DNA of 28,344 nt from a virus. A model generated the notes under the pieces. That model worked only from the letters and a program-made list of their open reading frames with translations, was not told the DNA's origin and did no database searches. Both the position numbers and the translations under genes were made by a program. Below are positions 1,128-21,718 of the stretch, piece by piece. Numbering within the stretch: position 1 is the first letter of the stretch; each line of letters opens with the position of its first letter. The stretch lies in the IMG/VR virus record IMGVR_UViG_3300010399_000072, positions 1-28,344 of that record; one strand, given 5' to 3'.

Positions 1128-2903
1128 TCATCTACGCCACTGATCGTTGCCTTCGAGCGCTGCAACTCGCGCTGAAAGCTTCTGGAGCGCGAAAAGTAGC
1201 GGGAGCAGGAGTTTCCCGGGCGTGGCCTCCCAGCGCTCGGGAACAGTCTTGTCCACGAGCTGCAGCCACGTGAGGCCCCACTTCACTTGCCAGGCGTCGA
1301 TACCCTGCGCAATCACACCAACCTGTGGCCCAGGCGGCATGCCGTCGTTGATCCACTCGAAGATAACGACAGCGATATCTTCGATCGCCCCGTCTGGGAT
1401 GTCGAAGAGCCGCACGTTCTTCTTGAAGCGGATATCCGAAAGTGCGGTGATCGTCGTCACCTGCGCTCGAATTACAGAGATGCTGGCATTGCCGAGCGTG
1501 ATTTGGTTGGAGGCCGTACAGACTGCAGCGTTGCCAATCGCTGTGGTGTTCGTGTAGTTGCCCGCATCCGCATCGGCCGTATAGCCAATAAATGTGTTCG
1601 TGCTTCCGGTAGTGTTCGTAAGCCCGGCGCTATGACCGATGGCCGTATTCGCCGCACCCGTCGTCGCGCCAAGTGCATTTTTCCCAACGGCGGTGTCGAA
1701 ATCGGCAGTAACGTTCGCAACCAGCGCATCTTCGCCGACTGCGGTATGCCCGGCTCCGGTCGTATTGTTGGCGAGCGCTCGATGGCCGCACGCGGTATTG
1801 GCCGTACCGGTGCTGTTTGTGGTCAGGGAGGCCTGACCAACAGCGGTGTTTCCGGCGGCTGTATTGAAGCTGAGCGCGCCATGACCAACAGCGGTGTTCT
1901 CGCTCGCTGTCGTGCAATTGTTGAGCGAGTCCTTGCCGACAGCGGTGTTCTCGTGGCCCGTTGAGATATTGAGACCAGCGTTTCGACCCACGCCCACATT
2001 GTTTGCACCCGTGCAGTCTTCCAGCGCATAGGCACCGCAGGCGGTGTTGTCGTTTGCCGATACATTCGTGAGCAGTGCGTGTTCACCTACCGCTGTGTTT
2101 TGGCTGCCGGTCTCGTTGCGGAACAGCGCGCCTTGCCCAACAGCCGTGTTCTCGTCGCCCGAAGTGTTGAAGTCGAGGCAGTTTTCTCCGACCGCCGTAT
2201 TGAAGCTGCCATCGACATTCGACTCCATGTTGTGGGAGCCGATCGAGGTATTCTTTTCCCCCGTAGTATTCGCCCTGAGTGAACCGAATCCCACGGCTGT
2301 ATTGTCACCACCGGTTGTGTTGACTTCGAGGGCGCTCTTGCCAATTGCTACGTTCTCGGAGCCGGTCGTGTTGAGCGTCAAAGCAGCGCGGCCTAACACC
2401 ACGTTGCTTGAGACAGAGCCTGAGCCCAGCCCCACGAGCGGCAGCAGTGCCTGGTCCGACACGGCCACAGCATTCGCGATGGTGGCGTATCGCTCTTGTA
2501 GGACGATGCCGATCACGTTGCTTGGTACGGCGTAATCCACAATCACCGCGCCGGCCGCCGTTTCCTCTGGCGTCTTCGGATACAGCAACTGCCCGATAGT
2601 GGAGCTCGACACGAGTGTCGAAATGTCATCCACCGACCAAATCGGGTTCGTCGGCGGATCCGTATCGTTCGGCGGAGACAACACAAACTTGTAGCTGAGC
2701 GCGGGATCTAGCCAGATTCGGCACTCCCCGCGATAGTCGAGCACAATGGGGTTCGTGTTGACCGATCCGCCGGTCTCATCTGTGTACGTAGCAACCTTGG
2801 TGGTTGTACCGGCGGTGTAGGTAAACAGAAGCCCCTTCACCAAGGGCTCTCCATTGTTGGAGAAGAATTTCTGAACTGGCAGCGGTGAAAGAACAGTGCT
2901 CAC
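1128..2903 (-). CDS. tail fibre with YadA-head-like repeats and S74 chaperone domain
   Basis: A 591-residue trimeric-fibre protein. Residues 1-95 are an anchor domain shared with the gene upstream (motifs NNGEPLVKG, LDYRGE, NDTDPP). Residues about 167-465 are some 17 repeats of about 17 residues with the pattern N-T-A-V-G-x-x-A-L-x-x-N-T-T-G, the motif of trimeric autotransporter (YadA) heads, which fold as left-handed beta-rolls. Residues 480-591 are a Peptidase_S74 intramolecular chaperone: LSDIRFKKN places catalytic Ser489 and Lys494 five residues apart, as in endosialidase K1F, followed by a helical end. It presumably drives trimerisation and then cleaves itself off. GTG start, overlapping the upstream stop (GTGA). 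Probably the receptor-binding protein. Confidence 0.85.
   Translation of the reverse strand: MSTVLSPLPVQKFFSNNGEPLVKGLLFTYTAGTTTKVATYTDETGGSVNTNPIVLDYRGECRIWLDPALSYKFVLSPPNDTDPPTNPIWSVDDISTLVSSSTIGQLLYPKTPEETAAGAVIVDYAVPSNVIGIVLQERYATIANAVAVSDQALLPLVGLGSGSVSSNVVLGRAALTLNTTGSENVAIGKSALEVNTTGGDNTAVGFGSLRANTTGEKNTSIGSHNMESNVDGSFNTAVGENCLDFNTSGDENTAVGQGALFRNETGSQNTAVGEHALLTNVSANDNTACGAYALEDCTGANNVGVGRNAGLNISTGHENTAVGKDSLNNCTTASENTAVGHGALSFNTAAGNTAVGQASLTTNSTGTANTACGHRALANNTTGAGHTAVGEDALVANVTADFDTAVGKNALGATTGAANTAIGHSAGLTNTTGSTNTFIGYTADADAGNYTNTTAIGNAAVCTASNQITLGNASISVIRAQVTTITALSDIRFKKNVRLFDIPDGAIEDIAVVIFEWINDGMPPGPQVGVIAQGIDAWQVKWGLTWLQLVDKTVPERWEATPGKLLLPLLFALQKLSARVAALEGNDQWRR
1509..2405 (-). 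repeat. about 17 tandem coding repeats of roughly 51 bp (YadA-head motif)
   Basis: Degenerate in-frame repeats encoding the N-T-A-V-G-x-x-A-L motif. The period is mostly 17 codons, with a few units one codon shorter. Bases are diverged between units while the Gly, Asn and Ala/Leu positions are kept, pointing to selection on the protein fold rather than recent slippage. Confidence 0.8.
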
Positions 2904-3850
2904 GAGAAGTTACTCGACACAGGGTAGGTGATCACGAAACCATCCATCGATTTAGTGCCGGCCGCGGTCCAAGAGCCCCCTTTATGAAAGAAGTTGAAGC
3001 TTCCGCTCGCAGCGGAAAGCCCCACGCTTCCTGCGGCGTACGTTGCAACGCCGTTGTCTATCGCTCCCATGCCATAGATGCCGACCCCAGTCGCACCAAC
3101 CCCTAGCTGCAAACTCGCAGGAATGCCGCTGTATCCAAAACTGGTCGAGTTGCTGACGAGGAATCCGGTTGCAGGGACAACGATCGTGACGATGCGTCCT
3201 GAACGAGCCCATGTGGCGGTTTTTGTGGGGGCTGTGGTACACCCCACAACGGTCAGCGTGAATGTGCCACCGGTATTCAGCGATGCGGGTGTTGTTAGGA
3301 TGAACGTGCTTCCCTGATACAGGATCGTCGCTGGTACGTTCGCTTGGATCTCGTTCGCACTCAGCGGAGAGCCATCGGCATTGATGATCGGCACCGCCCC
3401 CAAACCATTGACGTTGATCGTGCTTGCGCCAGTATTCGAGTTCGATGGAATCCAATAGATGACGATGCCATCGGTGTATGCGGTGAAGTTCGCGGTGAAG
3501 TTCAGGACGTACGCATTTGCGATGCCGGTATCGATACCGCCGTAGAGCGTCAGTAGCTGGCTCGAGATGACGTTGTCGACCGACCAGAACGGATTGCCCG
3601 GCGGATCAGTATCGTTCGCGGGCGCCAACACGAACTTGTACCCGACGTTCGGCGGAAGCCAGACATTGGCCTCGCCGCGGAAGTCCAGAATGACGGGATT
3701 CGCGTTTTGCGTGACGCCGGCAGAATCTACGTACGTCGCCTGTTTCGTTGAGGTCCCAGCGATGTAGGCGAACAGTTTCCCGCCAACGAGGGGATTCCCG
3801 TTATTGTCAAGGAACTGCTGTTTTGGCAGTGGGGATAAGACGGCGGTCAC
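2900..3850 (-). CDS. tail fibre/anchor protein, paralogous N-terminus
   Basis: A 316-residue protein. Residues 1-95 match the N-terminus of the neighbouring fibre almost motif for motif, so both probably attach to the same tail site. Residues 100-190 are a beta-rich region with GASTINVNGLG, of a type common in phage fibres. Residues about 193-316 (GCTTAPTKTATWARSG through GFVITYP) resemble the C-terminus of the 266-residue protein at 11894-12694, and may be an exchangeable fibre-tip domain. No S74 or hydrolase motif is visible. It starts at GTG behind a weak GGTGA and overlaps the next fibre by GTGA. It could be an adaptor that carries or alternates with the longer fibre. Confidence 0.7.
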   Translation of the reverse strand: MTAVLSPLPKQQFLDNNGNPLVGGKLFAYIAGTSTKQATYVDSAGVTQNANPVILDFRGEANVWLPPNVGYKFVLAPANDTDPPGNPFWSVDNVISSQLLTLYGGIDTGIANAYVLNFTANFTAYTDGIVIYWIPSNSNTGASTINVNGLGAVPIINADGSPLSANEIQANVPATILYQGSTFILTTPASLNTGGTFTLTVVGCTTAPTKTATWARSGRIVTIVVPATGFLVSNSTSFGYSGIPASLQLGVGATGVGIYGMGAIDNGVATYAAGSVGLSAASGSFNFFHKGGSWTAAGTKSMDGFVITYPVSSNFS

Positions 3851-3886
3851 AGCGTCACCGGGCTAATCCAGCTACAATCTCCACGC

Positions 3887-4003
3887 ATGAACACCGAGCG
3901 CGAAAGGCTGTTTCGGCTGATCCGGCAACTCATCATCTGGGGGGTATGCCTATTTGTTGGAGCCTGGGCACTCGGATTCATCTGGCTCGCCTTCAACCAC
4001 TGA
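3887..4003 (+). CDS. 38-residue single-pass membrane peptide, opposite strand
   Basis: A short rightward ORF exactly filling the 154-bp gap between two leftward late genes and stopping two bases before the convergent ejection gene ends. The first 14 residues are basic and polar (NTERERLFRLIRQ), followed by one hydrophobic helix (about residues 15-36, Trp- and Leu-rich). This is positive-inside topology. No Shine-Dalgarno site is seen, but a -10-like TACAAT (3873-3878) ends eight bases before the ATG, which would give a leaderless message. No good -35 is present. Placement, charge pattern and complete lack of overlap with flanking genes argue for a real moron-type gene; function is unknown. 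Confidence 0.45.
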   Translation: MNTERERLFRLIRQLIIWGVCLFVGAWALGFIWLAFNH

Positions 4004-4004
4004 A

Positions 4005-6056
4005 TCATGGCGGCACCTCGTCACCTTCCCTTCGGCGAATACCAGCGCCCGGCTCCGTTGCCTCTCTGATCAGCTTTCGCTCTGAACGCTGCTGGAATTT
4101 CTTGCGCGCGAACGTCCCCACTGGAATTCCGCCAGCCTGAACATTTGCGTAGCCCTCCAGGATGTTTGCCGCATGCTCTCTTGCCGCGGCTACAAACGTG
4201 TTGGAGTTGTTAACGAATGCTCCGCGCGGCTGCGCCTGCGTGTAACGCGCGACATTTCCGAGTGCCTGCGCCCGTTCGGCGACCTGCTCACCGAGGAGGA
4301 ATTCAAGCTTCGGCGTTAGCTCACTGAGCGCTCGGTTGTATCCAGCCTGAGAGAAGTTGCCTTCGTTCGTATACAGGTTTACGCCAGACTTGGACTTCAC
4401 ATAGTTGAGCGCGCCCGCAGCGATCGTCTCGGCTGCCTGCGGATCTGCGGCTAGGTTGTCGCGCATGTTCTTGATGTTCGCGGCCTTGCCTTTGACGACG
4501 TACTTCTGCACGAAGTCATCCGCGAGCGACGAAAGTTCGCCGATCTCTGCTCCATCATCCACCGCCGCCCGATAGGCTGGATCGGCACGCAAGCGATCAA
4601 ACCGCGCCTTTGCCGCCGCACGAGCCGTGTCGGCCAGCGGCTTGATCTTTGCAGCCTCGCCCGTCATGGGAAGCGATTCGAGAGATTCGCGCACAATGTT
4701 CACCGCTGCCGCGGCATTGCCATCTCCACTTCGCTCTGCCTTCCTGGCTTCCGCCGCAAGATTGGTGCGCAGGTTTTCGAACTGCTCAAACGTCATTGAG
4801 CCGGTTTCGCGAAGATCTGCAAGATCGCCCGCAACCTGAGACGGCACGTAACGGCCTTTCAGCTTTTTGGAGAGCGCCCGGTCTGCTGCTTCAACAAACG
4901 TCTTTCCGTCCACTGGGAACTGTCCGCCGTTTGCCTCCTCGAGTGCTTTGTATTTCGCGCGAATGTCCGCAACGATGGGCTCGTCTGCAGTCTTGTACGC
5001 GTCGATCAGGTATTGCCCATTCTGGACATGGTCCTGGCCAACAACATTGGGAGCGGCTTCACGGCGAATCTCATCGAGGTTATCGATCAGATTCTGATTC
5101 TGTTCGTTAAAGATCCGAGCGAGCTCAGGATTCTTTCCACGCGCGTTCTGCTCGATGGATATTTGCGTTGGATCTTGTGTCGCCTGCCCTTTGGTCAAGC
5201 GCATCTTGATGGGCAGCGAGTCGGCCTCTAGGTGCCGAGTCAGTACGTCACGATTGAGGCCACCTTCTTGAGCTGCACGCTGCACGACCGCGCGAATCTC
5301 GGGGCTTGCCGCCACGATATCGGGCGATGCTGCGGCGGCACTCAGCGTGTCACTACCGAACGATGTTGCAGGGGCCGCGCTGGAAGCTGGCATTGGCTCC
5401 TTGCCTGCTGCTCGTAACATGGCATCTGAGGTTGCCTCGCCGGCCTGCGCAACCCTGCGTCCTGCACTGGCGACCGTCGAAGCTGCAGATTTGGCGCCCG
5501 AAGACACCGCGCCAGGCACTTCGCGCAGGATCTGAGTGGCAGGAGAGACGAAAGGCGAAAGGCCCATGATCCCGCTCGCCGCTCCCGCTGCGGCCGGCAC
5601 CTCGCGCAACAAACTCTCTGCGAAGGGGCTTACCGTTCCAACAGAAGACGCTGCACGGTCCGCGATCTTCGCCACCGGACGCATGAGGGTTTGGGTCGTG
5701 AGATCAACATCGGCCTGCGCGGCCTTGCCGCTTTCGCTGATCGGATCGTAGGTGAAGTATTCAGACACATCGGCCATCGTCTGCGCAGGATTCACATTGA
5801 GTCCTAGTGCTCGACCAATTGCCGCCCCTCCATATGCGATGCCGCCAGGAATGCCTGACACTGCGCGCGTAACCATGCGGAGCCCTTCTTCTGCAGCTCC
5901 TACAGGTGCCATAGAGATCGACGGTGTGGACTGGCGCTTGGGCGAGTCTGATGGCTCTGCGCGACCCTCAAGCAACGATATGGCACGCTGGGACGGCGTC
6001 TCCTCCTCAGAGGAGGCGCTATCGTCGTTCAGCAGAGCAAGCGCTGCTTCACTCAT
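4005..6056 (-). CDS. large internal virion / DNA-ejection protein
   Basis: A 683-residue protein, Ala-rich and strongly helical, with an acidic N-terminus (DDSASSEEE), a Gly/Ala-rich hydrophobic stretch (about residues 64-86) and long coiled-coil-like C-terminal helices. It is the last and largest of four consecutive genes between the tail factors and the fibres, the place of P22 genes 7, 20 and 16, whose products leave the capsid with DNA and form a conduit across the envelope. Sequence alone does not show which P22 protein it corresponds to. No lysozyme or transglycosylase motif is visible. It overlaps the upstream gene by ATGA. Confidence 0.65.
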   Translation of the reverse strand: MSEAALALLNDDSASSEEETPSQRAISLLEGRAEPSDSPKRQSTPSISMAPVGAAEEGLRMVTRAVSGIPGGIAYGGAAIGRALGLNVNPAQTMADVSEYFTYDPISESGKAAQADVDLTTQTLMRPVAKIADRAASSVGTVSPFAESLLREVPAAAGAASGIMGLSPFVSPATQILREVPGAVSSGAKSAASTVASAGRRVAQAGEATSDAMLRAAGKEPMPASSAAPATSFGSDTLSAAAASPDIVAASPEIRAVVQRAAQEGGLNRDVLTRHLEADSLPIKMRLTKGQATQDPTQISIEQNARGKNPELARIFNEQNQNLIDNLDEIRREAAPNVVGQDHVQNGQYLIDAYKTADEPIVADIRAKYKALEEANGGQFPVDGKTFVEAADRALSKKLKGRYVPSQVAGDLADLRETGSMTFEQFENLRTNLAAEARKAERSGDGNAAAAVNIVRESLESLPMTGEAAKIKPLADTARAAAKARFDRLRADPAYRAAVDDGAEIGELSSLADDFVQKYVVKGKAANIKNMRDNLAADPQAAETIAAGALNYVKSKSGVNLYTNEGNFSQAGYNRALSELTPKLEFLLGEQVAERAQALGNVARYTQAQPRGAFVNNSNTFVAAAREHAANILEGYANVQAGGIPVGTFARKKFQQRSERKLIREATEPGAGIRRREGDEVPP

Positions 6057-7480
6057 GGAAGCCGACCCGTCTCAGCAAGCGAGTCCAGGTTACGCATCTT
6101 GCGTGCGACTTCCTTACGGCGCGCCGGACTGAGCTCTTCGAGAATCTTTCTTTGCGAGGCCTGATCGCCATCCGCTACAGCGTTCTCGAGCCGGAACGCG
6201 TCGACGTCGAAGTTCTTGGCCCAGTCGGCTTTGAAACGCGGAAGCTGTCCGTAGTCGACGGCGCCGCCTGTTCCTACCGCTTTATCTACGCCCTGACGAT
6301 ACTTCTCGATGCCGGTGTTGGTGGCGTAGTTGAACTCGGTTACGGCCTTGAGGGCCTTGGGATTGAATTCACCCGACCCATTTGCGGCAACTGCGGCGCT
6401 GAGGCGTGCATCGCTTGGCGGACCGCCCATCGCTTGCATGTTGGCGATGGCATTCTTCTCCAGGTACTTGTTCAGTTCCTGGAAGTTGTCACCAAACGCC
6501 TGGCCACCGATTTTCGTTTTCTGCAAAAAGGCGGCTAACGGCCCCGTGCTCGTCTCGTCTGCAAGCTTCAGGATATGCTGGAAGATGTTGCGGTTTGACG
6601 GCGCCTGATCGGCAGTTGCTCGGACCTGCTGCACTTCATGCTGCTGCATTTGAATGTCAGCAGTTTGCCCGACATAGGATGGCTGTTGGAAAGTCGGCTG
6701 ATTTGGTGCTGCACCGGGCGCAGGACCGCCTCGACCCGAACCCACTGGGGTCACAGTGTTTTTCTGTGGGTCGAAGGCAAATTGAGCGCCCTTCTGGTCC
6801 GTTAGAATCTGCACACCAGGACCGACCGACAGTGGAATGTCCCCGCCGCTTCCGATGGCTACGTTCGGATTTACATTGGTCAGCGCGCTTCCCTTGTTAA
6901 CGAGAGTAGGCATCTGCGCTTGCCGCTGCTGCTCGACATCGAGCGCTTGCATTTGGATCATGCGCAGGGCCTGGCTCATCTTGCCCTTGGGGGCATTTTT
7001 CAGCGGACTCGCATAAGCCTGCAGGACTGGCAGCGCCTCATCTCCAAAGAGTTGGCCGTACAGCATCCATGCTTCATTGACCTTCTGGCGCCCCTTCTCG
7101 TTGTCCTCGACCACATCGGAGTCCGCGAGCAATGGATCGAGCGTCTTGGCAAGACCCGAAACCTGATCACCACGCAGATTGAACAGTTTCGATTTCGCCT
7201 CGAGCTGCTGTTGCTTGGCGGCTGCGGCATGCTGTAGGACTTCGAGATACTGATCTCCTGCAGCAGCTCGAAGATCCGGATCCGTGGTCAGGCTATTGAG
7301 ATCAACGGTGCCATCATCTCCGACATGCTTGCCGAAGTCGTATGAGGCAATAGCGGCCCTTTGGCGCTGACTCTGCTCGGCAGATTCAGTCTGCGCGCGC
7401 TGCTGGCGCATGCCCAGAATCTGCGAGAGCTTCTGAATCGTGTTCGGCGGCTGCGCTTGTAGACCGACATACTCCGCCAT
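6053..7480 (-). CDS. internal virion / DNA-ejection protein
   Basis: A 475-residue helical protein. The chosen start (ATG at 7480, MAEYVGLQ) has GGAGG five bases upstream and sits just after the upstream stop; a 45-codon extension is possible but would be read inside the neighbouring gene with no ribosome site. The N-terminal 130 residues are Gln/Ala-rich (QRAQTESAEQSQRQ and similar), the middle has a Pro/Gly-rich linker (about residues 230-260), and the C-terminus is helical and charged. Position and composition match podoviral ejection proteins (the P22 gp20/gp16 group). Exact role is not determined. It is followed by ATGA overlap with the 683-residue gene. Confidence 0.65.
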   Translation of the reverse strand: MAEYVGLQAQPPNTIQKLSQILGMRQQRAQTESAEQSQRQRAAIASYDFGKHVGDDGTVDLNSLTTDPDLRAAAGDQYLEVLQHAAAAKQQQLEAKSKLFNLRGDQVSGLAKTLDPLLADSDVVEDNEKGRQKVNEAWMLYGQLFGDEALPVLQAYASPLKNAPKGKMSQALRMIQMQALDVEQQRQAQMPTLVNKGSALTNVNPNVAIGSGGDIPLSVGPGVQILTDQKGAQFAFDPQKNTVTPVGSGRGGPAPGAAPNQPTFQQPSYVGQTADIQMQQHEVQQVRATADQAPSNRNIFQHILKLADETSTGPLAAFLQKTKIGGQAFGDNFQELNKYLEKNAIANMQAMGGPPSDARLSAAVAANGSGEFNPKALKAVTEFNYATNTGIEKYRQGVDKAVGTGGAVDYGQLPRFKADWAKNFDVDAFRLENAVADGDQASQRKILEELSPARRKEVARKMRNLDSLAETGRLP

Positions 7481-7481
7481 G

Positions 7482-8180
7482 TCAGCCTCCGGTCTTGTAG
7501 CCAGCCGAAGCGGCGCCACCGCCCGCGCCACCGTAGTTCTTCCAGAGCCAGTAGTCGGAAGCACCTTGGCCGATCGCGTTTCCCGCACCGACGATGCCAG
7601 CTCCCGCAGCGCCACCTGCGTTGGTCAACGCTTGACCAGCATTCCCGGCAAGCTGTGTTCCCTGTGAGCCGACGCCCGCAGCGGCGTTCTGACCGAGCTG
7701 CGCGATGCTGGACAGGCGCGAGAAGATGTTGCCCTGCTGGGTCTGGTAGCGATTGAAGGCGTCGTTATAGCCTGTGCGTGCGAAATTCTGGCTGTATCCG
7801 AGAAGATCCTTGAGAGCGGCGCCCGACAACGCACCGCTACCCGCGGCGGCGCTATTCTGTAGCGCCTGCGTTCCCTGCTGAAGTTCGAACGCGTAGCCCG
7901 GATCGGCGTAGTCGTAGAACTGCTCGACGTCGAATGGCTGCGTGAATGACCCATAAGCAGGGTCTGACTGATCTCCGTAGTAGCCGTCCATCTGATCCGC
8001 CGAGGCCATCGCCGGATCAGCAGGCGTGTTGCTGCCCTGTGGGATAATCACTCCAGCTGGATCCAGCAGCCCTTTGCTGGCGTCACCACCATTACGGGCA
8101 GCGGCGATCGTGCCGCCTGCAGGATCAAACGCAACGCGCGTGGCGCTCTTTGGATTCAGCAGCTTTTTCAGGAAGCCCAT
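7482..8180 (-). CDS. ejection protein, C-terminal part of a split family
   Basis: A 232-residue protein. The second half carries DPGYAFELQQGTQALQNSAAA, GALSGAALKDLLGYSQ, NRYQTQQGNIFSRLSSIAQ and a Gly/Ala-rich run ending GIVGAGNAIGQGASDYW, the signature of a phage DNA-transfer protein family. In many related phages these segments follow directly on a QPYIQSGYGAMSRLNTLLGL-type N-terminus in one polypeptide; here that N-terminus is a separate gene upstream. The first 90 residues (MGFLKKLLNP onward) are Gly/Pro/Asp-rich and look like a new leader. It starts at TAATG overlapping the upstream stop, so the two are coupled. There is no sign of recent damage. Confidence 0.65.
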   Translation of the reverse strand: MGFLKKLLNPKSATRVAFDPAGGTIAAARNGGDASKGLLDPAGVIIPQGSNTPADPAMASADQMDGYYGDQSDPAYGSFTQPFDVEQFYDYADPGYAFELQQGTQALQNSAAAGSGALSGAALKDLLGYSQNFARTGYNDAFNRYQTQQGNIFSRLSSIAQLGQNAAAGVGSQGTQLAGNAGQALTNAGGAAGAGIVGAGNAIGQGASDYWLWKNYGGAGGGAASAGYKTGG

Positions 8181-16892: not shown

Positions 16893-19091
16893 TTACTTAC
16901 CTGCGCCGTTGGGCGCCCTGTCGTTCTGTGCTGCCGAAATGGCCTTGTCTGCGGCCTTTGCTTCGTGGGCCGCCTCTGCATGGGTGTTGAGCAATTGCCC
17001 ACCCACCCGAATCTCTGCTACATCGCGAGCTGTCGCGCCCTGCCTATCCGTGACTTCGAGCTTGGTGCGATTGTTGACGTCGGTATCGTGCATCCACCCA
17101 GCAAAGTCGCGCTCGCTGTTGGCGTTGTCGGCGCCGACCTTCAGTTCGGTGTTGTGGACGGACACGACGCCCTTCATTTGCTCGCGTCGGGTCGCGCCCT
17201 CTTCCTTCATCTGCGCGATGCCCTGGCCGTACTTGATCTCGAGGCTCGCCTGCTGGAGCTGCTCGTCCTTCTGCTTCAGCTGCTGCTGGAGCGACCCGAT
17301 GATGGTCTGCGCCTGCTTGGGCATGCCCTCGATGATCTTGTCGAGCGCGCCGGGGATCGTGACGGCGAGCCGATCAGCCACCTCATCGGCACCGTGGAAA
17401 TCCATGTTGCGGATGACGATGTCGCCGCTCGTCTGCGCCACTTGTTCGCCCAAAGGCGTGCTCAGAAGCTCGACGAGGTTCTCGGCGGCTTCCTCGCGCT
17501 TGGTCGCGTAGCCTGGCCCGGTGTCCATGACGACCGCGTATCGGCCCACGCTCATATCGTTCTTCACGACCTTCACGCCCGGGCTCTCCGGGTGATCGCC
17601 AGGCGCGTTGAGCTCTACGAGCTCTGGCACACCGTCTTCCCCGATGATTCGCTGCATGCGTTTGGTGTCGTAGTAGAACGGGATGCGCTCAAGCAGCAGC
17701 GAACCGGTCCATGCGATCGCAAGCGTCTGGTTGTCGTAGTACTGGAAGTGCGTGAGGTCCTGCATGCCCTGCCGGCGCTGCAGATACTTGTTTCCGCCGA
17801 CGACACGCGCGGCGATCTCAGGGTTCTCCTGCGGCATGCCTGCAACAGACATGAGGTCATGCTCGGCGCCCTGAGCCGCTTCCGACATGCCCGCCTCGAC
17901 CTGCGCCGGCGCTACGCGCTGCGGAGGTGGAAGCGGTGTGACGCCATCAGGCCCGGCGATCGGCTTGTAGACGAGCGTGGAGTACGACTTCTGGTTCGCG
18001 TCATTCCACTCTGGATGGCCCTCGATCTGCCCTTCTGCGACCACCCACGGTGCCTTGGGCGTCAACGCATAGCGCTCGGTCTGCGCCGTGCGCCAGTAGT
18101 TGAACATCTGCGCGGGGTCTTTCAGGTCTTCGACCATGCCCTTGCGCAAAACGAGCCCGTTCACGTCCTGAACGTTGCCCTCGCACCGAACCACAGGGAT
18201 GTGCTCACCCGGATCATCACGACGATCGACGACTTCCGTCCCATTCAAGCGGAACCACTGCACCACACGGCGGGTGGTGGGACGCTCAGCGATAATCGTG
18301 AGCCCCATCGCGGAGATGACTTCAGGGTCGACGAGTTCGGATCGAAGCTTGGTCTGTCCATCGGAAAGCTTCACGAGTGAATCCTTCACCTCGTGGATGC
18401 GGAAATACTCCGCAAGCCGCACCTCTTCCTTGGTCTCCCACATCATCTGCAGGTCGCCAGGCGCGTCCACGTATCGCCATTCGGTGTTCGTAGCCTTCGG
18501 GTAGCGACGCTTGTACTCGGCGCGCTTCATCGTCTCGCTGATGATGCACCAGTACTGATCACGCCCATCCGGCATGACTGAACCCGGATCCATGTACACC
18601 GTAAACGGATTACGGATCGGCTTGATGAGCAGCTCCTGATCGAAGCTCATCGGGTCGATATATTCGGAAACGATGCGCCAATAGCCCCAACCGATGTCGA
18701 TGGCGTTGGCGACACCCGTGTCATACGCGACAGAGGCCTTCGAACGGTCTTCGATGTGTCGGATGAGTCCGTTCACCGTGGCCGCGGTGTCCACATTCGC
18801 GCCATCGCCTACTGGGTGGCACTTGATGCGCGGGCGCTGCTGCCTGAGCGTGTTCTCGAGCCGTGCGCAGAACGTGTTCGTGTGATTGATGGTGAGCGCG
18901 GGTCGGCCATCGATCTTGCGCGAGTTACTGACATCCGCATCCCACTGGTCACCCCAGCGGAAGCGCTTGGCATTGATGCCCTTGATGCGGTTCTCCGACT
19001 CGGCCGCCGTACAGATGCGCAGGCGTTCGGCGCATTCGCGCCAGATGCCCTCGTCTGTGGTGGCGTCCTTGTCGAAGTCGGTGGCGTTCAC
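16893..19091 (-). CDS. portal protein, P22 gp1 type
   Basis: A 732-residue protein (P22 gp1 is 725), forming the dodecameric DNA entry ring. P22-type features include RFRWGDQWD followed by RPALTINHTNTF and LENTLRQQRPRIKCHPVG near the N-terminus, YGWRI-like segment GWGYWRIVSEYIDP, and a long helical C-terminus (about residues 560-732, with QQQLKQKDEQLQQASLEIK) that would form the barrel domain. GTG start overlapping the upstream stop (GTGA). It lies downstream of TerL with one small gene between them. Note that a 735-codon open frame runs antisense to it; that is a base-composition effect. Confidence 0.9.
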   Translation of the reverse strand: MNATDFDKDATTDEGIWRECAERLRICTAAESENRIKGINAKRFRWGDQWDADVSNSRKIDGRPALTINHTNTFCARLENTLRQQRPRIKCHPVGDGANVDTAATVNGLIRHIEDRSKASVAYDTGVANAIDIGWGYWRIVSEYIDPMSFDQELLIKPIRNPFTVYMDPGSVMPDGRDQYWCIISETMKRAEYKRRYPKATNTEWRYVDAPGDLQMMWETKEEVRLAEYFRIHEVKDSLVKLSDGQTKLRSELVDPEVISAMGLTIIAERPTTRRVVQWFRLNGTEVVDRRDDPGEHIPVVRCEGNVQDVNGLVLRKGMVEDLKDPAQMFNYWRTAQTERYALTPKAPWVVAEGQIEGHPEWNDANQKSYSTLVYKPIAGPDGVTPLPPPQRVAPAQVEAGMSEAAQGAEHDLMSVAGMPQENPEIAARVVGGNKYLQRRQGMQDLTHFQYYDNQTLAIAWTGSLLLERIPFYYDTKRMQRIIGEDGVPELVELNAPGDHPESPGVKVVKNDMSVGRYAVVMDTGPGYATKREEAAENLVELLSTPLGEQVAQTSGDIVIRNMDFHGADEVADRLAVTIPGALDKIIEGMPKQAQTIIGSLQQQLKQKDEQLQQASLEIKYGQGIAQMKEEGATRREQMKGVVSVHNTELKVGADNANSERDFAGWMHDTDVNNRTKLEVTDRQGATARDVAEIRVGGQLLNTHAEAAHEAKAADKAISAAQNDRAPNGAGK

Positions 19092-20799: not shown

Positions 20800-21052
20800 C
20801 GGTCAGATCGTCCAATGGCTGCGATTGCTCCACCTGCTTGGGCATGAGGGAGGCGACCGCCTTGATGTACGCGACAGGATCTTTCTCGCGCGCATCGATA
20901 ATTGCTTTCTTGCCGTGCGCGTCGAAATCGTCCGCCAGGCTGTTCAGGAAGGCGCCCTGCAGGCGATTGCGGGCGGCCTTAGGCTTGCCACCGGGATTGC
21001 CGGACTGGCCCGCAACAAACTGTGTGCGCTCAGGCGGCGGCGGAGTTGGCAT
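20699..21052 (-). CDS. terS: terminase small subunit (DUF5681-type)
   Basis: A 117-residue protein. The N-terminus has FVAGQSGNPGGKPKAARNRL (about residues 12-31), the DUF5681 signature found in small terminase-like phage proteins. The middle is helical (AYIKAVASLMPKQVE), suited to ring oligomerisation, and the C-terminus is Gly/Ser/Ala-rich. It directly precedes TerL. ATG 21052 (AGGA eight bases upstream) is chosen; an extension of 13 codons lies deep in the GroES-like gene. It overlaps that gene by 23 bp and TerL by 101 bp. Expected to recognise phage DNA and regulate TerL cutting. Confidence 0.75.
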   Translation of the reverse strand: MPTPPPPERTQFVAGQSGNPGGKPKAARNRLQGAFLNSLADDFDAHGKKAIIDAREKDPVAYIKAVASLMPKQVEQSQPLDDLTDAELTAGIALLRSRLSGGAREGAGEAPSSSAVN

Positions 21053-21446
21053 TGGCCTGTTCCTGAGGCTGCGTGCGCACGCCCACGACATCCCGCTCCT
21101 GGCAGATCAGGTGCTTCTCGCCGTTGTAGAGCACTTCGGTGAACGAGTAGCCCTGACCATCAAACACGTTGAGGCCATCCAGTTCGATCACTTCGCCCGG
21201 CTTCACTTCGGTTGGGCGGAAGCGCTTGCTGTACTCGATACGCTGGCGACCATCGTTGAGCTTGGTACGCTTCGAGACTGGGTAGTGACCCGGGCCTACG
21301 GCGACTACGCGTCCCCGAAGGGGGCGGCCGTTGCGAATGACTTGGATCCGAGACCCTTCGCCGTGAACGGACTCTCCGTTCCATTCGAGCGGCTTGAGCA
21401 GGATGCGGTCGCTCGTCATGCGCATCTTGCCGTTGATGATTTCCAT
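21030..21446 (-). CDS. GroES-like co-chaperonin
   Basis: A 138-residue protein resembling the Cpn10/GroES fold: DRILLKPLE near the start, a loop region with GEGSRIQVIRNGRPL, then RGRVVAVGPGHYP, VKPGEVIEL, and a C-terminal TEVLYNGEKHLICQERDVVGV, which matches the GroES strand pattern (G-x-V-x-A-V-G-x-G ... I-x-x-x-D-I-x-A-V). It is longer than host GroES (97), with an inserted segment (about residues 55-80). T4 gp31 is the classic phage GroES-like protein, required for coat folding. Placement next to the packaging and coat genes is consistent with this. TGATG overlap upstream. Direct interaction with host GroEL is inferred. Confidence 0.65.
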   Translation of the reverse strand: MEIINGKMRMTSDRILLKPLEWNGESVHGEGSRIQVIRNGRPLRGRVVAVGPGHYPVSKRTKLNDGRQRIEYSKRFRPTEVKPGEVIELDGLNVFDGQGYSFTEVLYNGEKHLICQERDVVGVRTQPQEQANANSAAA

Positions 21447-21718
21447 CAGTGGCTCCGGTTCACGAGCGCAAGGCGCACCGCACCGGCGGCAGTGTCTTCG
21501 GCAGGGGGTGCTACATCCCAATCTGCCGGGCGGTTGAGCGCGAGCTGGAAGTGATCGCAGCCACGGCCACAGGCCATGTGCTTGGCGTACCAGTCGTCGA
21601 GTCGCTTGAGGTTGGGCGACATGTACTGGACGTCGTTTCCACCGCGCTCGCCAATGCAGATCGATTCATCGAGCTTCGGATGGTGCGAACACACGAGAAA
21701 GAGCCGATTGGCGCTCAC
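21446..21718 (-). CDS. small conserved-looking protein, Cys/His-containing
   Basis: A 90-residue protein starting at GTG that overlaps a tiny upstream ORF (GTGA) and overlaps the GroES-like gene as TGATG. It has FLVCSHHPKLDESICIGERGG (residues about 7-26) and HMACGRGCDHFQLAL (about 47-61), giving Cys10, His12/13, Cys20 and then Cys50, Cys54, His56, a spacing that could bind one zinc. No known family is recognised. Function unknown; it lies where the early leftward genes pass into packaging genes. Confidence 0.55.
   Translation of the reverse strand: MSANRLFLVCSHHPKLDESICIGERGGNDVQYMSPNLKRLDDWYAKHMACGRGCDHFQLALNRPADWDVAPPAEDTAAGAVRLALVNRSH

Follow-up and report, generated by a model that had tools for sequence, protein, structure and literature searches.

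A minimal antisense membrane gene between the ejection and fibre genes of an environmental podovirus: a candidate superinfection exclusion moron

The window analysed here, a 28,344-nucleotide (nt) stretch of viral DNA comprising positions 1 to 28,344 of IMG/VR record IMGVR_UViG_3300010399_000072, contains a short open reading frame (ORF), designated ORF38, which lies antisense to the late operon in a slot between the gene at the last ejection-protein position and a fibre gene (Table 1). On the sequence evidence ORF38 is a real protein gene, with its plus-strand frame under protein-level selection; it is a moron by position and distribution; and, by analogy with SieA of phage P22, its function is probably superinfection exclusion. 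The explanation that best fits these points jointly is that ORF38 is a minimal moron in a P22-like exclusion/immunity slot and hinders the entry of superinfecting DNA, a reading that we hold tentatively and rate somewhat below an even chance.

Results

ORF38 and its homologue

The ORF38 product, from the window translation, is MNTERERLFRLIRQLIIWGVCLFVGAWALGFIWLAFNH. Its first 14 residues include 4 Arg and 2 Glu, and a hydrophobic core that begins at residue 16 (best 19-residue Kyte-Doolittle [KD] mean, 2.16) corresponds to one predicted helix. The slot is the only sizeable gap in this part of the late operon, since in the ORF list every other late ORF between 1128 and ~11.9 kb abuts or overlaps its neighbour. 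The original prediction of an opposite-strand, 38-codon ORF in that gap, with a basic N-terminus, one membrane helix and a -10-like box ahead of it, was borne out in each of these particulars.

One relative, locus L004 on a 40-kb contig, carries a homologue, MDTELSKLLRLIRRLIIGGLGAVVAFWVLAYTWLAFNH, in the same slot, on the same strand and of the same length. The 2 ORFs differ at 39 of 117 nt and, counting the stop, specify an identical residue at 22 of 39 codons; dN, the nonsynonymous distance, is 0.306 and dS, the synonymous distance, is 1.30, which is near saturation, giving dN/dS of ~0.23. We compared the pair by a BLOSUM-based codon test, in which the null distribution was obtained by scattering equal numbers of changes per codon position at random, and observed that conservation exceeds chance in the plus frame (p=0.007) and does not do so in the opposing late frame (p=0.48). 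When the same test was applied to nine pairs of real late genes from these 2 phages, divided into 53 blocks of 39 codons each, the true frame gave p<=0.007 in 52 of the 53 blocks and the wobble-sharing antisense frame did so in 3. The result for ORF38 rests on the one sequence pair.

Searches with ORF38 against 50,697 phage records and 72,556 plasmids gave nothing better than E 8, and no family in Pfam, PHROGs or PADLOC matched it in profile comparisons. Two DNA-pattern searches of viral contigs with the conserved ends of the ORF returned 8 loci (7 of them unrelated once translated) and 1 locus, respectively, and only the L004 contig was a true match. A search of bacterial genomes with the neighbouring proteins gave no match, so that no host or prophage can be named.

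Contents of the slot in relatives

Relatives were found through the 520-residue protein encoded next but one to ORF38 (five IMG/VR loci) and then through alignments of two neighbours. The first survey comprised 45 sequences, namely the window and 44 loci from distinct contigs; loci on contigs already represented and two truncated loci (L025, L026) were excluded. An ejection-protein match was present in 36. A gap separates the matching gene from a recognised fibre gene in 20 of these, the two genes adjoin in 3, no fibre gene was recognised in 12 and the contig ends first in 1. After removal of the near-duplicates L002 and L055, 18 slots remained. We defined a membrane ORF as an ATG ORF of at least 24 amino acids (aa) with a KD mean of at least 1.8. 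Of the 18 slots, 13 contain such an ORF antisense, where the antisense background of those contigs predicts 1.1, and none contains one in the late sense. The slots without an antisense one are those of L036, L039, L043, L045 and L058. This slot-wide enrichment, together with the L004 homologue, indicates that ORF38 is more than a chance ORF.

The antisense membrane ORFs are mostly unrelated to each other in sequence and fall into about ten families by our grouping. The window and L004 ORFs are homologous, those of L046, L048 and L054 seemingly form one family (judged by eye), and L003 and L007 encode two-helix proteins. A common two-helix 'FRK' family (L003, L042, L057, L090 and L143) was considered, but in the alignment only M1 is invariant. 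The expectation that relatives would keep the ORF38 frame was narrowly upheld: L004 keeps the gene, and the other relatives have different antisense membrane ORFs or none. The identification as a moron is well supported: ORF38 is inserted, on the opposite strand, between genes that abut in L005, L012 and L013, the content of the slot varies by phage, and the place corresponds by position to the 'ant moron' of P22 with sieA.

The wider scan took in 80 loci, of which 78 were analysed (L077 and L118 lie on contigs already seen) and 76 were usable; 40 were near-identical around the stop, and most had no gap. Of the slots measuring 80-300 nt, 12 were non-duplicate; 5 of these (L090, L101, L102, L117 and L143) contained an antisense membrane ORF and 2 (L131 and L146) a late-sense one, and late-sense membrane ORFs were frequent in large gaps. 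The antisense pattern is therefore limited to part of the phage group.

Two other features of these slots were seen. Lipoprotein-like antisense ORFs are present in L042 (8726-9007) and L057 (7678-7911), with the lipobox recognised by eye and, in L057, with a strong Shine-Dalgarno sequence; both are candidates for surface exclusion proteins. Also, in the slots of L043, L046, L048 and L054 a GCCGC...GCGGC hairpin followed, in the late direction, by a T-rich run lies just before the antisense ORF start and could serve as a terminator ahead of the fibre gene.

Start signals

The position of TACAAT, 8 nt before the ATG, means that the ORF38 mRNA may be leaderless; our criterion for this class was a -10 box 6-8 nt before the ATG and no Shine-Dalgarno 5-mer, and ORF38 has both properties. 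A -10 match of at least 5 of 6 positions at the leaderless distance is found for 8 of 2250 antisense ATGs on 13 contigs, and for 2 of 249 in the late region of the window, ORF38 included. Upstream of the L004 homologue, the block GCTAC.ATC is kept at 8 of 9 positions, as compared with 10 of 31 in the rest of the 40-nt upstream stretch (p=0.004). Among 20 antisense membrane ORFs from the slots, 8 are preceded by a Shine-Dalgarno 5-mer (oddly spaced in L042 and L102) and 3 (window, L003 and L047) by a -10 box of at least 5 of 6 at the leaderless position, so that 11 of the 20 have either start signal, versus 62 of 2579 (2.4%) background antisense ATGs.

The late-strand bridge

The slot is also open on the late strand, where a 53-codon 'bridge' ORF begins in an ATGA overlap with the stop of the upstream gene at 4005-6056 and ends in a GTGA overlap with the start of the fibre gene at 2900-3850. 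Ten of the gap slots have an ejection-gene stop that overlaps a start codon, and in 6 of these (window, L003, L004, L006, L007 and L036) the late frame stays open across the gap and ends exactly at the fibre start; in L034, L056 and L058 it ends no more than 15 nt from that start, and in L042 it does not. The chance of an open, in-phase late frame was 0.003-0.18 per slot (eight slots). Relaxing the limits gives 20 bridged slots out of 39, as compared with 4.3 expected from shuffles. Possibly, this excess is in part a by-product, because stops become scarce in a frame that lies opposite a hydrophobic ORF in the wobble-sharing phase; such an effect leaves the phase match at both ends of the bridge unexplained. 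The first codon bases of the window bridge are 23 A, 15 C, 7 G and 9 T, and in the neighbouring gene 44% are G. L084, L088 and L106 have no antisense membrane ORF, and in them the gap is spanned by late-sense ORFs of 67-77 codons; the bridges of these 3 loci and of L131 may be ordinary late-sense genes.

Slot genes in named phages

In Rhodoferax phage P26218 the slot contains an antisense membrane ORF of 53 aa (17751-17912) that lacks annotation. It is similar to ORF38 in slot, strand, small size, membrane character and purifying selection, and it differs in its length, in its unrelated sequence and in overlapping the 3' end of the ejection-position gene. Members of this family occupy the slot in P26218, in two near-identical spring records and in ten IMG/VR contigs, for which the position was judged from flanking ORFs; the homologue in MW202557 has 58.5% identity. 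For codon analysis we used 9 of the 12 sequences listed, leaving out L160, L164 and L166. The ratio of nonsynonymous to synonymous differences per site (pn/ps) was 0.25 in the plus frame versus 0.35 in the opposing wobble-sharing frame, which is also open in 9 of 9, and differences at plus-strand codon positions 1, 2 and 3 numbered 252, 112 and 544, the order that is expected of plus-strand coding. In MW202557.1 a late-sense 44-aa ORF (29095-29229, minus strand) is annotated opposite the conserved antisense 53-aa gene, and this annotation is probably on the wrong strand.

EBPR podovirus 1 likewise has an annotated 54-aa antisense membrane ORF, gp24 (JF412294.1, 11596-11760), beside its last ejection-position gene, with a sequence unrelated to that of ORF38. 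No convincing slot ORF was seen in PBR31, none was present in the stretches of VvAW1 and DSL-LC05 that were scanned, and the annotation table of BA3 lists no antisense gene at the slot.

Discussion

Comparison with the P22 slot

In P22, sieA (NC_002371.2, 13336-13830, minus strand) lies antisense between gene 16, which ends 22 nt away, and the tailspike gene 9, and the ORF38 slot and the interval between genes 16 and 9 are positional equivalents, with no significant match at the gp16 and gp20 positions. SieA resembles ORF38 in being a membrane protein encoded antisense to the late operon between the last ejection gene and the tailspike gene (PMC10883804). The P22 region has been named the 'ant moron' and described as the only moron site within the virion gene cluster, and it has been asked whether this is the sole place that tolerates insertion (PMC2629481). 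Like the ORF38 slot, it has a variable content and is missing in some relatives, namely Sf6 and APSE there and L005, L012 and L013 here; unlike that slot, which holds one minimal gene, it accommodates up to six genes, antirepressor and repressors among them (PMC2629481). The phages considered in that paper are P22-like phages of Salmonella, E. coli, Shigella and insect endosymbionts, and those considered here are environmental podoviruses. Relative to the P22 slot, the minimal size, the probable leaderless start and the late-strand bridge are new, and we found no paper in the open-access literature on minimal antisense membrane genes in the ant-moron slot.

On the reading that we prefer, RNA polymerase would start at or within 2 nt of the ORF38 ATG to give a leaderless mRNA, which would be read at a low level in the lysogen while the late operon is silent. 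The peptide would reside in the inner membrane with its N-terminus inside and its C-terminus outside, so placing the conserved WLAFNH end toward the periplasm, and there it might impede the building of the inner-membrane DNA conduit by the ejection proteins of a related, superinfecting podovirus, as does SieA of P22. The open bridge, in turn, might let ribosomes that finish the ejection-protein gene cross the insertion and pass on to the fibre gene.

Weighing of explanations

Several observations weigh against exclusion by a prophage moron. ORF38 has 38 aa versus ~165 aa for SieA and only one predicted helix; by inspection its residues lack the SieA motif FxRYPxEAxxFNK (PMC10883804). The product of 4005-6056 did not match P22 gp16 significantly by hhalign (E 0.12). 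Only L004 keeps ORF38, and other slots contain late-sense ORFs or are empty. Neither an integrase nor an S24 repressor was found in this 28-kb record, the ends of which are not closed; tyrosine integrase genes were detected in 7 of the 20 records searched, those of L003, L004 and L006 among them, and ten records searched for a serine recombinase and S24 repressor had none. P26218 lacks an annotated integrase and still carries an antisense membrane ORF at this place; the slot is therefore not restricted to phages with an evident lysogeny gene, and this counts against a purely prophage role of the slot generally. Within 3600-4300 no promoter with a -35 element exceeded the scan thresholds, nor did any terminator, and a moron is expected to have its own promoter and its own terminator. 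Moron terminators are often absent in practice.

We think it quite possible, albeit on the doubtful side, that ORF38 is a real membrane gene with a role other than exclusion, in envelope change, lysis timing, host fitness or as a type I toxin-like peptide. Its size and hydrophobicity suit many small membrane peptides, slot contents are diverse, ORF38 has no profile match, and the slot ORF of L006 weakly hits a holin-like PHROG (E 0.056); yet the slot analogue of known function, sieA, is an exclusion gene, and a lysis gene transcribed against the late operon would be odd. That the true gene is the late-strand ORF, translationally coupled to both neighbours, with ORF38 as its antisense shadow, appears improbable. 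The 4-nt overlaps at both ends, the frequency of exact and looser bridging and the MW202557 annotation speak for it, but the late frame of the window and L004 is conserved at chance level where real late genes pass the same control, the bridge has a first-base composition unlike that of the neighbouring gene, and in the P26218 family the second position of plus-strand codons is the most conserved and pn/ps is lower on that strand. We rejected the late-strand ORF as the main product on the codon tests, namely that of the window and L004 with its 53-block control. We give similarly little credence to the view that the plus-strand element, with or without a peptide, adjusts late (fibre) expression as a promoter or antisense RNA: the conserved -10 block would fit, as against the protein-level selection on ORF38 and the Shine-Dalgarno sequences ahead of antisense ORFs in several relatives. 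Least probable is a chance ORF in an intergenic gap. ORF38 is short and has a single homologue, and 52 antisense ATG ORFs in 208 kb reach a KD of 1.8 or more; the codon test with its control, the slot enrichment and the excess of start signals all argue otherwise.

A more general proposal, which we regard as speculative and rather unlikely to hold in full, is that the SieA slot of environmental P22-like podoviruses houses an unrecognised class of minimal exclusion peptides, which are 24-66 aa long with one or two helices and, in this clade, often leaderless, and that the slot is coded on both strands, with an antisense exclusion gene and a late-strand 'translation bridge' kept for ribosome hand-over. 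As the slot can be read by position, it offers a list of small candidate exclusion proteins, most of them unannotated, each beside its presumed target genes. The bridge, if true, would show how an operon tolerates a backward gene, and would bear on why this is the sole moron site among virion genes (PMC2629481).

Neighbouring genes

Features of the slot and its surroundings are collected in Table 1. The product of 6053-7615 did not match P22 gp20 significantly by hhalign (E 0.22).

Table 1. Positions of ORF38, the slot and adjacent genes in the window
Feature	Coordinates	Strand	Remarks
ORF38	3887-4003	+	ATG to TGA; 38 aa; predicted single-pass membrane protein gene antisense to late operon
-10-like hexamer TACAAT	3873-3878	+	8 nt ahead of ORF38 ATG; putative leaderless promoter
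Slot	3851-4004		154 nt; gap between last ejection-position gene (4005-6056, -) and fibre gene (2900-3850, -)
Bridge ORF	3847-4008	-	53 codons; spans slot, overlaps each neighbour by 4 nt
Fibre/tail protein	2900-3850	-	Directly downstream of slot on late strand; phrog_4900 tail protein, E 5e-9
683-aa protein, P22 gp16 (ejection protein) position	4005-6056	-	Assigned by position
520-aa protein, P22 gp20 position	6053-7615	-	Assigned by position; 5 relatives
DNA-ejection protein, P22 gp7 position	7482-8180	-	phrog_598 'DNA ejection', E 2e-14; two genes upstream

The tandem fibre ORFs at 1128-2903 and 2900-3850 have a common N-terminal domain (LSPLPxQxFxxNNGxPL), and the same pair is present in relatives. 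Elsewhere in the window, the ORF at 21030-21521 (minus strand) appeared GroES-like by eye and had no PHROGs hit; GroES-like genes are annotated near the terminase or portal gene in PBR31, DSL-LC05 and MW202520.
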